The notes below the pieces were generated by a model. It saw only the letters and a list, made by a program, of their open reading frames with translations, did no database searches and had not been told where the DNA came from. A stretch of DNA of 62,286 nt from an uncultured Jannaschia sp. (GTDB lineage Bacteria > Pseudomonadota > Alphaproteobacteria > Rhodobacterales > Rhodobacteraceae). How positions within the stretch are numbered: the first letter of the stretch is position 1; the number at the start of each line of letters is the position of its first letter. This document shows, piece after piece, positions 20,853 to 57,919 of this stretch. A program made the position numbers and the translations under genes. Location: NCBI RefSeq assembly GCF_947494025.1, contig NZ_CANLTQ010000014.1:1-62286 (forward strand), read 5' to 3'.

Positions 20853-20939
20853 ACGGCGGCGCGGCTGGCCCCGATCCCGGCCCGGGCGACCGCGGCCGAG
20901 ACGTTGAGCGACGGCGCCGTCCGCGCTAGGTGAGGCGTC

Positions 20940-20985
20940 GCGCGGGACGACCCGCGCCGTTCGCGCTTTCCTCGGGACGACCCGA
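20940..20985 (+). promoter_or_regulatory. Guanidine-II (mini-ykkC) riboswitch
   Basis: Two consecutive hairpins carry the identical apical GGG-ACGA-CCC. Hairpin 1 spans 20940-20957 (7-bp stem) and hairpin 2 spans 20972-20985 (5-bp stem), with a 14-base linker. Paired stem-loops with ACGR loops define the mini-ykkC/guanidine-II class. It lies 22 bases upstream of the start codon of a SugE-type SMR exporter gene, the classic target, with the Shine-Dalgarno site (AAAAGG, 20995-21000) just after hairpin 2. Guanidinium binding is expected to free that site and turn on translation. Confidence 0.9.
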
Positions 20986-53679: not shown

Positions 53680-54470
53680 CCGTAATGGTCCTCCAGCGGC
53701 GCCCCGGCGCGGTCCGTGTCGCGGTCGAGGGTCGTCTCGTATTCGGCCAGCGCGTCGCCGCGTCGGGCGAGCGCGAACTTCACCGAAAGGTCCGATGGCG
53801 GATCGAGTGGTCCACCATCTGGACGCGGATCTTCGCGAGGCCCGGAAAGCTCGGGCACGCCCACCATCGCGTGGGTCTCGACCAGTTCCCCGATATGCGT
53901 CGCTTCGACGCGCCGGTCCGTGAGGAAAGCGTATTTCGGCATCACGCTTTCCGGCACGACGCTCTGCGGATCCATCAGGTGGTCGACATGCCATTCGTCC
54001 GAGTAGCGGCCGCCGACGCGGGCAAGGTCCGGCCCGGTCCGCTTGGAGCCCCACTGGTGGGGGTGGTCGTACATCGACTCGGCGGCGAGCGAGTAATGCC
54101 CGTAGCGCTCCACCTCGTCGCGCATCGGCCGGATCATCTGGCTAAGGCAGGTGTAGCAGCCCTCGCGGATGTAGATGTCGCGCCCGGCCAGTTCGAGCGG
54201 GGAATAGGGGCGCATCCCTTCCACTTCTTCGATGGTGTTCTCGAGCCAGAAGAGGGGCGCGATCTCCACCGCGCCGCCGACGGTGACGACCGCGAAGCTC
54301 GCCGCGAGCAGGAGCGTCGCGTTTCGCTCGAGCCGCTGGTGGAAGGTGATCCTCTTCGTCTCCGGCGGCAACTCGTTCGGAATGTCGCCCTCGCGCAGCG
54401 CCGCCCCGGTGGTGACGATCTCGGGGTCGTCGGTGGGATCGTAGTCGGGGCTACGGGGGCCCTTCGTCAT
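53680..54470 (-). pseudogene. ccoO: cbb3 oxidase subunit CcoO, degenerate
   Basis: The N-terminal two thirds read as CcoO: TM anchor and [92 protein letters not shown]. Two defects are visible. The heme-c motif that should be CxxCH reads CYTCL; the Leu codon is 54146-54144 and one base change from His accounts for it. After VGVP the sequence no longer follows the family (expected acidic DP-rich segment and the closing AYLQxLGT are missing), and it runs on out of frame. An unusual 45-residue N-terminal extension precedes the anchor. No ccoQ or ccoP follows; the M20 gene lies there instead. Confidence 0.8.
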
Positions 54471-54475
54471 CTCTT

Positions 54476-55832
54476 TCACTCCGCGGGGGTGGCTGCGAGG
54501 ACGGGGCGCGCCTCGGGCGCGCGGATTGTCCGCCACATGTTCCAGACCATGACGAGCCCGCCCGCGAGGTAGAGGACGCCGCCCAGGGCGCGGACCACGT
54601 ACATCGGGAACTTGGCGGACACGGCGTCGGCGAAGGCGTTGACGAGGAAGCCGTTGGCGTCGACCTCGCGCCACATCAGGCCCTCCATGATGCCCGAGAC
54701 CCATCGATGCCGCGTAGAGGACGATCTCCAGCGTCGCGAGCCAGAAGTGCAGGTTGATCGCGGCGACCGAATGCATCTCCGTGCGGCCCCACAGGCGCGG
54801 CGTCAGGAAGTAGAGCGCCGAGAACACCATGCCGAGCGTCGCGGCCCGGTCGGGCAATGCGGTGTAGTGCAGGTGGTGCGGCCCCGCCCAGATATAGAGG
54901 AAGATCAGCGCCCAGAAATGGATGATCGAGAGCTTGTAGCCGGAGATCGGCCGCCCGGCCTGCTTGGGGACGAAGTAATGCATCATTCCGAGGAAGCCGG
55001 CCGTCAGGAAGAACCCGACGGCGTTGTGGCCGTACCACCACTGGGTCATGGCGTCCTGCACGGCGGCGAAGATCTGCACCGACGTCGAGCGCCAGATGCT
55101 GACGGGAACCGAGAGGTTGTTGACCACATGCAGCATCGCCACGGTCACGATGAAGGCGAGGTAGAACCAGTTCGCGACGTGGATGTGCCGCTCGCGTCGA
55201 TGCAGGATCGTTCCGAGGAAGACGGCGAGATAGACCAGCCAGACGACCGTGAGCCAGATGTCCACGTACCATTCCGGTCCGGCGTATTCCTTGGACTGCG
55301 TGGCGCCGAGCAGGTCGCCGGTCGCGGCCAGCACGATGAAGAGGTTGTGGCTCCAGAACACGAATCACGCCGCGTTGCCGCCCCAGAGCCGCGCGCCGCA
55401 GGTCCGCTGCACCGCGTAGAGGGACGCCGCGATCAGGGCATTGCCGCCGAAGGCGAAGATCACCGCCGAGGTATGGATCGGGCGCAGGCGCCCGAGATTG
55501 GCGTAGGGCTGCGGCCATTCGATGTTGAGCGCGGGAAAGGCCAGTTGGAAGGCGATCCAGGTGCCCACGAGGAAGCCCACGACGCCCCAGAGCCCGGTGG
55601 CGATCACGCCGGCGCGGATCGGGCCGTCCATGTAGCCCGCGGGGGCGGGACGCGGCGCCGGCCCCCGGCCATCGGCGGGCATCGCCCTGAGCGTCCACAG
55701 AAACGCCCCCGCCGCGAGGAGCAGGACGAGAATCGCAGGGACCATGTCGGCCGCGTCCCGCGCGCAGTCCGCCGCCATCGCCGCGAGGAATGCGGGCAGC
55801 CCCAGCCCGGCCAGCTTGGGATAGTCCGACAT
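54476..55832 (-). pseudogene. ccoN: cbb3 oxidase catalytic subunit CcoN, degenerate
   Basis: The protein can be followed from the ATG at 55832 to the TGA at 54476-54478, but with three lesions. (1) A TGA at 55365-55367 replaces the expected Trp in GGNAA-W-FVFWS. (2) Near 54818, TLGMVF joins directly to [15 protein letters not shown], losing roughly 85-95 residues that hold the HVHxGALGW heme-ligand histidines. (3) Near 54700, a two-base loss shifts ASM out of frame from [14 protein letters not shown]. The copper-site residues WYGHNAV and AGPHHLHY and the first heme His (RPIHTSAVI) remain. It cannot make an active oxidase. Confidence 0.88.
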
Positions 55833-55921
55833 GCCGGTCCTTTCCCGATCGTCGTGGGTCCGGTGACATGTCCGTCGCGGGCGTGGCCTCGATCGAGATC
55901 AAGCCGCGTGAAAAAGCCGCC

Positions 55922-56653
55922 TCAGACGGGCAGCGCGCCGTCCTCGTCGTCGCCGGACTCGGCCGCCAATGCGGCAAGGTCGTCGCAGGAAAGGCCGCGC
56001 GCCCCCTCGAGCCGGATCAGCCCCGCCTTGCGCAGCGCGGTCATCTGCCGGCTCACCGTCTCGATCGTGAGGCCGAGATAGGCCGCCATCGCCTCGCGGG
56101 TGAGCGGTAGCTCCGCGCGGAGCGGCCGGTCGGCCACGGAGGCGCGCCGCAGGACGAGCGTGAGCAGCGTCGCGACCTTCTCGCGGGCGGTCTTGCGGCC
56201 GAGGACCAGCATCCAGTCGCGCGCTGCGTCGAGCTCATCCAGCGACATCTCGAGGAGCCGCCCGGCCAGATGCGGCGTCTCCACCATCATCCGCTCGAAG
56301 GCTCGCCGGTCGAACATGCACAGCGTCACCTTGGTCGCGGCCGTGACCGCATAGGGCGCGGCGGCCCGACCCGGCCGGCCGAGGAAATCCGAGGGCATGA
56401 GCAGACCCACCATCTGCATCCGTCCGTCCTCGAGCGAGCGCGTGAGCGTGGCGCAGCCCTCGACCACGGAGGCCACGAACGCGAGCGCCTCGCCTTCGAG
56501 CACGATCGTCTCCCCGGCCTGCCAGGAACGATAGCTCTTCATCGCGGCGAGGCGCGCGAGATCCTCGCCTTCGCAGGTGGCGCAGACGGCCCGGTGCCGG
56601 ATCGGGCAGGCGGCGCAGTCGGGCGTGGCGAGCGAAAGGTCGATGCGGGACAT
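55922..56653 (-). CDS. fnrL: FnrL-type oxygen-sensing regulator (Crp/Fnr family)
   Basis: 243 residues, apparently intact. N-terminal cysteines Cys13, Cys16 and Cys24 (CAACPIRHRAVC) plus Cys112 (KVTLCMFDRR) match the four ligands of an Fnr [4Fe-4S] cluster. The cNMP-like roll spans about 40-130, a long dimer helix about 130-155, and the winged HTH contains TREAMAAYLGLTIETVSRQM with the E--SR recognition pattern of Fnr. It sits between ccoN and hemN, the ancestral rhodobacteral order, where FnrL activates cbb3 oxidase and hemN under low oxygen. Here all its local targets are broken. Confidence 0.9.
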   Translation of the reverse strand: MSRIDLSLATPDCAACPIRHRAVCATCEGEDLARLAAMKSYRSWQAGETIVLEGEALAFVASVVEGCATLTRSLEDGRMQMVGLLMPSDFLGRPGRAAAPYAVTAATKVTLCMFDRRAFERMMVETPHLAGRLLEMSLDELDAARDWMLVLGRKTAREKVATLLTLVLRRASVADRPLRAELPLTREAMAAYLGLTIETVSRQMTALRKAGLIRLEGARGLSCDDLAALAAESGDDEDGALPV

Positions 56654-56749
56654 GGGCTGAAGGCCGATCGGTGAGTGGAGGCGGCGAAGATGTCACGTCC
56701 GCTGATCTGCATCAAGGCGCGCGTGACGGGTGTGGGGCAAGCGCGGAGC

Positions 56750-57919
56750 ATGGACCGTCTCGACGCCGGCCTCACGGCCCGCGCGCTCACCGCCTGCGCA
56801 TCCCGCTACACCAGCTATCCGCCCGCCACGCACTTCTCCGACGCGGTCGGACCCGAGACGATGCGCGACCGGCCGACCGAGGTGCCGGCGCGGCCGCGCA
56901 TCTCGCTTTGCGTCCGCATCCCGTTCTGCCGGCGGCTCTGCTGGTTCTGTGCCTCTCGGATCCAGGGAACCGGGACCGAGGCGCCGCTCGCCCCCTATCT
57001 CGACGCCCTCGAAGCGGAGATCCCGCTCGTCGCCGCGGCGCTTCCGGGCGGCATCACGGTCGAGCAAATGCATGTGGGCGGCGGCACGCCGACCTTTCCG
57101 CCGCCCGACCTGATGCGCCGCCTCTTCGCGATGATCGCCGCCACGATGCCGCGCGCCCCGACTCGACACGCTGACGAAGGGCGGGATCACGCGGGCGAGC
57201 CCTGGCGTACAGGATTTCGACCTTCGCGTGCCGAATGCCATCGGCCGGCCGCAAAGCTTCACGCCCGACCGGATCGCGCTCGAGGGCTACGCGCATGTGC
57301 CCCGGGTCTCGAAGCGGCAGGTAATGATCCGCGAGGTTGACCTGCCCGACGCCGGGCAGCGCCTCGACCTCGCCGCCCGCGCCTCGGACCGCCTCCGCGA
57401 TGCGGCGTTCCGGACGATCGGCATCGACAATTTCGTCCGCCCCGCCGATCCGATGGCGAAGGCGGCGGAAGCCGGAACCCTCCAGCGGAACCTCCAGGGC
57501 TATACCTGCGACGAAGCGGAGGTGCCGATCGGGCTAGAGGCCTCCGCCATCTCGAGCCTGCCCGCGGGTCATGCGCAGAACACGCCGCGCACCAGCGACT
57601 CGCGCGCACGTATGGGCCAAAGTCGATTGGGGACGACGCGGGGACACGCCCTCTTCGACGAGGATCGGCTCCGGGGTCGGGTGATCGAGCGGCTGCTCTG
57701 CGACTTCGCCGTCGATCCGGCCGCCTTCGCGGACCCTGACGCGGCGCGGGGACTGACCTGGACCGTTGCCTCGGCCTGGCCCGGGCGGTCATGCTCGACG
57801 GAACGGGACGCCCGCGCTCGCGACCGGGCGCGGAACACCTCGCACGGATGATGACGACGGAGATCGACACCTGCGCGATGCCGGAGGGGCGGCACGGTCT
57901 GGCGGTCCGACGGGGGTGA
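56750..57919 (+). pseudogene. hemN: Oxygen-independent coproporphyrinogen III oxidase HemN, degenerate
   Basis: The sequence can be traced from the ATG at 56750 (YTSYPPATHFSDAVG) to TGA at 57917-57919 (CAMPEGRHGLAV). The radical-SAM cysteines remain (PFCRRLCWFC), with His to Arg just before. After IAATMPRAP the expected EISVEIDP segment is missing and the frame shifts to LDTLTKGGITRAS. After GRPQSFT about 45 residues are missing before PDRIALEGYAHVP. A last frameshift near 57780 restores ARMMTTEIDTCAMPEG. It cannot fold into a working enzyme. Confidence 0.85.

Follow-up and report, generated by a model that had tools for sequence, protein, structure and literature searches.

Related systems and the locus analysed

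In Rhodobacter sphaeroides the gene for the regulator FnrL lies near cbb3 oxidase and heme genes (ccoNOQP/uspA/fnrL/hemZ) with FNR sites at both, and the regions bound by FnrL include ccoNOQP, uspA and fnrL/hemZ; the portion of that report drawn on here also discusses orphan regulators that lack a core regulon (PMC2908626). In the excerpted account of Dinoroseobacter shibae, FnrL acts as an inducer of the cbb3 operon and of denitrification genes, alongside three Dnr regulators (PMC5398030). Among the CHUG roseobacters (M1M2, M3M4M5) the part of the source used describes a cbb3 operon that is present or absent among close relatives, with fnrL upstream where it is present (PMC9426536). Here we analyse the corresponding locus in an uncultured Jannaschia sp. 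(draft genome of 4.39 Mb in 215 contigs, labelled G000). The window is the complete contig C14 (NZ_CANLTQ010000014.1, 62,286 nucleotides), in which an intact fnrL gene stands between the relics of ccoN and ccoO on one side and of hemN on the other. We think it likely that the native cbb3 oxidase has undergone xenologous replacement, with FnrL retained for targets elsewhere.

The arrangement described for R. sphaeroides is found intact in most of this genus, but in G000 all genes of the unit except fnrL are broken or gone. D. shibae resembles G000 in its cysteine-bearing FnrL and in having denitrification genes with further Crp/Fnr regulators; it differs in that its fixNOQPGHIS operon is working and induced by FnrL, and the excerpt describes no orphaning of the regulator. 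Nor does the part of the CHUG study considered describe a replacement module, unlike the situation in G000. No account of this replacement was found in the titles and opening lines of abstracts returned for cbb3 pseudogenes in Rhodobacteraceae, for FnrL with plasmid denitrification in Roseobacter, or for Jannaschia cbb3.

The native oxidase genes and hemN are pseudogenes

Comparisons within the genus used the 20 genomes in our collection. The closest of these to G000 is G165 (its sister on the FnrL tree, support 99/98), which carries an intact native operon at locus L051. Here ccoN encodes 536 amino acids and scores above the family cut-off, and ccoO encodes 278; ccoP, ccoG and ccoI are identified by family models and ccoQ by reading of the open reading frames (ORFs). 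Alignment to this operon bears out the initial annotation in that ccoN, ccoO and hemN of G000 all carry disabling lesions (Table 1). The inactivation of native ccoN and ccoO postdates the divergence of G000 from its sister species.

The ccoN pseudogene is 89% identical in DNA to the intact G165 gene (1211 of 1357 aligned bases). The nonsense codon, the deletion and the 2-nucleotide frameshift noticed initially all exist. However, all three are located in ccoN, the lesions of ccoO being different ones, and the deletion removes 84 residues and not about 90. These include the segment HVHSGALGW, whose histidines we take to be heme ligands. The model for subunit I (TIGR00780) matches two separate pieces, which score 96.6 and 335.1 bits where the cut-off is 583.15, and with the stop, deletion and frameshift there is no uninterrupted native CcoN above that threshold.

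The remnant of ccoO scores 287.8 bits against the model for subunit II (TIGR00781, cut-off 200.65) over profile positions 1-163 of 232. By contrast its CxxCH sequence, presumably the heme-c motif, is broken by the H109L substitution and its C-terminus is lost. It parts from the G165 sequence at about 53850, where some 72 of the 278 codons are swapped for unrelated sequence, in which neither the ccoO frame nor one overlapping frame matches Pfam. Nothing in the window matches the part of L051 that carries ccoQ, ccoP, ccoG and ccoI, and a search of the whole G000 genome for ccoG was also without a match.

The pieces of hemN score 80.4 and 100.0 bits against TIGR00538 (cut-off 324.95), i.e. there is no uninterrupted HemN, and no match above the cut-off exists anywhere in the G000 genome. 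A hemN above the cut-off is also missing from four more of the 20 genus genomes (G164, G154, G165 and G152, making five with G000). Since the sister is among them, the loss of hemN is not peculiar to G000. In both G000 and G165 hemN has decayed, leaving the oxygen-dependent HemF, which is found in all 20 genomes. The stretches missing from the hemN relics of these two genomes overlap and may reflect shared lesions, although alignment had to be forced in that region. A second hemN relic lies downstream of the acquired module described below, in G000 (L011 12644-13308) and in G165 (L052 7-308).

Table 1. Features of the native locus on contig C14 (window) and FNR-like boxes elsewhere in G000.
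Feature	Contig	Position	Strand	Basis or remark
ccoO pseudogene	C14	53850..54470	-	206 codons remain; 3' part lost, unrelated sequence after
ccoO codon 109, His to Leu (H109L), CxxCH broken	C14	54144..54146	-	Alignment to G165
ccoN pseudogene	C14	54479..55832	-	Alignment to G165; TIGR00780 pieces under cut-off
2-nt deletion giving frameshift, ccoN	C14	54702..54704 (approximate, ~54703)	-	Alignment to G165
252-nt in-frame deletion junction, ccoN	C14	54817..54818	-	~Residues 339-422 lost
TGA replacing Trp codon 156 (W156) of ccoN	C14	55365..55367	-	Alignment to G165
FNR box upstream of ccoN, TTGATCTCGATCGA	C14	55889..55902	-	One mismatch
fnrL, intact, 243 aa Crp/Fnr regulator	C14	55922..56653	-	ORF; NF045989 372 bits (cut-off 300); Pfam cNMP_binding and HTH_Crp_2
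FNR box between fnrL and hemN, TTGATGCAGATCAG	C14	56702..56715	-	One mismatch
hemN pseudogene	C14	~56747..57907	+	Pieces in different frames, internal losses
FNR-like box	C19			Between FnrN and cupredoxin-nirK genes
FNR-like box	C19			Upstream of ccoI
FNR-like box	C19			Before truncated usp
FNR-like box	C36			Before narK-like gene
FNR-like box	C8			Centre 65 nt before complete usp

A second, probably acquired oxidase module

A second, full-length ccoN scoring above the family cut-off is present in G000 on contig C19 (46310-47665). It forms part of a module with the order NnrS, nirK, cupredoxin, FnrN, hemerythrin, ccoI, ccoS, ccoN, ccoO, ccoQ, ccoP, where NirK, the cupredoxin, the hemerythrin, CcoI, CcoS, CcoO, CcoQ and CcoP are confirmed by family models. 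This is the second complete ccoNOQP for which the initial annotation had proposed a search. The presence of a complete ccoISNOQP indicates that oxidase function has been replaced rather than lost. The earlier view that only the regulator had been kept overlooks this complete second set, which stands with its own FNR-type regulator.

The CcoN of this module shares 63% identity with the middle portion of the native broken CcoN and 57% with the native-type CcoN of G058; six plasmids, from Paracoccus, Sulfitobacter, Alloyangia and Limimaricola, encode proteins like it at 82-86% identity. Plasmid p3 of Paracoccus sediminicola (NZ_CP115771.1; CcoN 86%) has the same gene order, the Crp/Fnr gene included. 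There the module is on a plasmid, whereas in G000 it is on C19, known only as a contig, with a hemN relic after it. In the Sulfitobacter plasmid the gene order upstream of the hemerythrin gene is unlike that on C19.

The same module is present in G165 too, with 94.75% DNA identity. The two genomes are collinear over about 16.5 kb (C19:36562-53106 in G000, C49:20920-3118 in G165), flanks included, at 87-95% identity, interrupted by short gaps and with a single small block falling to 76%. As G165 has this collinear module together with an intact native operon, the module arrived before the native operon decayed, provided that it was inherited from the common ancestor of the two species.

G000 has two further FNR-type regulators with cluster cysteines, the FnrN of C19 and one on C36, scoring 215.7 and 192.4 bits respectively against the FnrL model NF045989, below its cut-off of 300. 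We note that, in the region 502-12000 of L012, the C36 regulator is beside narK-like and narGHJ-like genes, as judged from the ORFs.

FnrL is intact and apparently constrained

FnrL is a full-length match above the curated NF045989 cut-off (Table 1). The initial annotation described an intact gene with helix-turn-helix and four candidate cluster cysteines; the gene is indeed intact and has the helix-turn-helix, but there are five invariant cysteines (C13, C16, C24, C27 and C112), conserved across 44 relatives. We take its ETVSR sequence to be the recognition helix, and with its helix-turn-helix FnrL is the predicted reader of TTGAT-N4-ATCAA boxes. FnrL at 60% identity or more is found in 18 of the 20 genus genomes. 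Identity to proteins of the wider family is mostly 55-63% among the best matches listed, with 77% for G058. The FnrL of G000 is the family's own, vertically inherited regulator.

Changes at invariant sites were counted in the 18 genomes that carry all three native genes (ccoN, ccoO and fnrL); G152 was left out as it is without native cco genes, and G154 and G161, without FnrL, were not extracted. In G000 17 of 283 invariant ccoN sites are changed (16 amino acid changes and the stop), compared with 0-7 (mean 1.6) in the 17 other genomes. Two of 112 sites are changed in ccoO, and none of the 90 genus-invariant sites in fnrL. The contrast between fnrL (0/90) and the two oxidase genes together (19/395) has p = 0.019 one-sided, or 0.032 two-sided. 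Neither was any change found at 73 sites of FnrL that are invariant in the family; two of the 28 family FnrL loci (G042 and G081), in which the script did not locate the motif, were left out of the cysteine, invariant-site and tree analyses.

Lineage-specific changes, polarised against other genomes, give a similar picture. The ccoN of G000 has 39 protein changes (stop included) against 15 in G165 (p = 0.0015), with no excess of synonymous-only changes (28 against 38). For fnrL the protein changes number 13 against 10 (p = 0.68) and the synonymous-only changes 28 against 34. On the G000 lineage the ratio of amino acid to synonymous changes differs between fnrL and ccoN plus ccoO with p = 0.027. 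These counts indicate, with moderate strength, relaxed constraint on ccoN but not on fnrL.

Values of dN/dS (omega) were obtained with the GY94 codon model in three-taxon fits with three outgroups. On the G000 lineage omega is 0.035-0.070 for fnrL, 0.073-0.091 for ccoN and 0.047-0.048 for ccoO. The branch lengths are large and unstable, which suggests to us that synonymous sites are nearly saturated; for this reason the counts of lineage-specific changes are preferred.

Selection on the regulator, one of two explanations offered initially, thus has moderate support in the lack of a lineage excess, the unchanged 90 and 73 sites and the contrast with the oxidase genes (p about 0.02-0.03), and FnrL appears still to be under purifying selection. 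The other, recent decay, is supported by the 89% identity of ccoN to the G165 gene and a branch omega still at 0.07-0.09. The two were put forward as alternatives, yet they can hold together.

FNR boxes and candidate targets

Of the 18 intact native ccoN genes, 17 have a perfect FNR box 67-94 nucleotides upstream; for these boxes the Fisher value is 0.016 (0.018 if 16/17 is used). The box between fnrL and hemN is perfect in 15 of the 19 genomes examined, has one mismatch in G000 and G152, and was not found in either G164 or G149. Among the 19, only G000 and G152 have one mismatch in both the fnrL box and the box of the (former) ccoN promoter. Loss of a box is no proof of decay, since neither box was found in G149, where ccoN is intact, and the fnrL/hemN box is missing from G164.

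A scan of the G000 genome gave 11 palindromic matches, compared with none for the reversed control pattern. Five perfect boxes, on C19 (three), C36 and C8, were judged FNR-like (Table 1). The complete universal stress protein gene (usp) on C8 is the best single candidate target of FnrL, because it is the only one outside modules that bring their own regulator. A relative of it in G165 (69% identical) has a perfect box just upstream. The remaining palindromes were not counted as FNR-like. Four, of the form TTGAC-N4-GTCAA (C8:67665-70254), lie amid ParA-, ParB- and replication-like ORFs (by ORF reading) and are probably partition sites, and no clear target could be assigned to two on C18.

A parallel case in the genus and co-occurrence in the family

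In G152 there is no native-type ccoN match and no hemN above the cut-off, but one foreign-type ccoN (639.8 bits). It is part of a foreign-type ccoI-ccoN-ccoO-ccoP set with a perfect box 70 nucleotides upstream of ccoI, and no FnrN was found within the 19 kb examined there. G152 has kept the native FnrL, which is the only match to FnrL in that genome above 34% identity. The losses of the native oxidase in G000 and G152 are separate events, since the sister of G000 keeps its native operon. No ccoN match at all is found in G154.

The family sample comprised 149 genomes, one per genus and G000 among them, counted by hand. FnrL was scored present at E < 1e-60 (the partial gene of G114, at a contig end, was scored present and the 36%-identical one of G109 absent), and ccoN for any match at E <= 0.001, even a partial one. 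Both are present in 129 genomes and neither in 12; seven have ccoN only and one FnrL only. FnrL is therefore missing from 12 of 13 genomes without ccoN, compared with 7 of 136 with it (p = 4e-12, treating the genomes as independent of ancestry). This fits FnrL being kept for an oxidase, native or foreign, that still needs it. A reverse case is seen in G161 (contig C4, L122), where native ccoN and hemN are above their cut-offs with a perfect box before ccoN, and nothing in the genome matches FnrL with an E-value below 1e-18.

Proposed replacement of the oxidase and its alternatives

On the interpretation we favour, the locus is what remains of a ccoNOQP-fnrL-hemN unit passed down vertically in the genus, and its oxidase function has been displaced by a nirK-cupredoxin-FnrN-hemerythrin-ccoI-ccoS-ccoNOQP module that was gained horizontally and lies on another contig. 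At low oxygen FnrL would assemble its iron-sulphur cluster, dimerise and act in trans on FNR boxes, the putative targets being the acquired nirK/fnrN and ccoI promoters, the narK-like gene and the universal stress protein gene. In part its action would run alongside that of the acquired FNR-type regulators, which probably read the same sequence. Judged from sequence, action in trans is plausible, and the best support for it comes from G152; in G000 the new module has its own FnrN, with which FnrL may be partly redundant.

Several observations weigh against this interpretation. The C19 FnrN and the C36 regulator adjoin four of the five perfect FNR-like boxes, so FnrL may be dispensable. Its branch in the FnrL tree is longer for G000 than for G165 (0.12 compared with 0.034). 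The statistics depend on few events (for fnrL none of 90 sites, where about four are expected), and ccoO taken alone has no significant excess of lineage-specific protein changes (12 in G000, 8 in G165, p = 0.5). With the GY94 branch model no gene differs significantly between the G000 and G165 lineages, which counts against a strong signal of relaxation, and omega = 1 is rejected for fnrL with only two of the three outgroups, but for ccoN and ccoO in all fits. In addition G030 has FnrL without a ccoN match, and seven genomes of the family have ccoN without FnrL.

FnrL could instead be the next gene to decay, so far spared because the decay is so recent, with the acquired FnrN having taken over all its targets. 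The similarity of ccoN to the intact G165 gene agrees with this, as does the FnrN itself, with its Crp-family helix-turn-helix, cluster cysteines and a perfect box at its own promoter; moreover both boxes beside fnrL are mismatched, the presumed self-control site among them. Yet fnrL is unchanged at the invariant sites where the oxidase genes are altered and shows no lineage excess of changes, and G152 kept FnrL after losing its native oxidase genes. We regard this explanation as unlikely, if still worth serious consideration.

Alternatively the native oxidase might have decayed first, in a stricter aerobe, and the nirK-cbb3 module been gained independently. The five genomes without hemN above the cut-off and the lack of ccoN in G154 are in keeping with such a history, but the module of G165, collinear with that of G000 and accompanied by an intact native operon, fits a single arrival before split and decay. 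The shared flanks lower a little further what was already a small probability, and we consider this order of events improbable. Errors of assembly or sequencing, conceivable in a draft of 215 contigs, can hardly account for independent lesions in three genes, the absence of ccoQ, ccoP, ccoG and ccoI, the decay of hemN in the sister too, and 16 amino acid changes plus a stop at positions of ccoN that do not vary among 17 other genomes, an excess not expected from such errors.

Returning to replacement of the native oxidase, we tentatively suggest that the resident FnrL might outlive its own operon by capturing the promoter of a cbb3 module that comes in, a resident regulator together with a shared box being the condition for a foreign oxidase to replace the native one. 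This possibility, about which we are more doubtful than confident, is based on replacement at least twice in the genus (G000 and G152), with both boxes mismatched each time and FnrL constrained.

Elsewhere in the window, a Guanidine-II (mini-ykkC) riboswitch is found at 20939-20985 on the forward strand (43.8 bits), at the 5' end of an ORF from 20930. The Small Multidrug Resistance domain (PF00893) of this ORF begins at residue 28, and the true start is probably after the riboswitch. This riboswitch and a Small Multidrug Resistance gene are an expected pairing.

Implications

The component pieces are all of known kinds; the interest lies in the three-stage series within one genus, together with a second independent case. 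Most species have the native oxidase alone, G165 has native and foreign, and in G000 and G152 the foreign oxidase is alone, with the native one decaying or vanished. For annotation this carries a warning, i.e. that fnrL beside ccoN-like genes need not mean a working native cbb3 oxidase. The series also allows a test of the idea that a global regulator persists because incoming modules carry the sequence that it recognises, an issue close to that of the orphan regulators discussed in the portion of the R. sphaeroides report drawn on above (PMC2908626).

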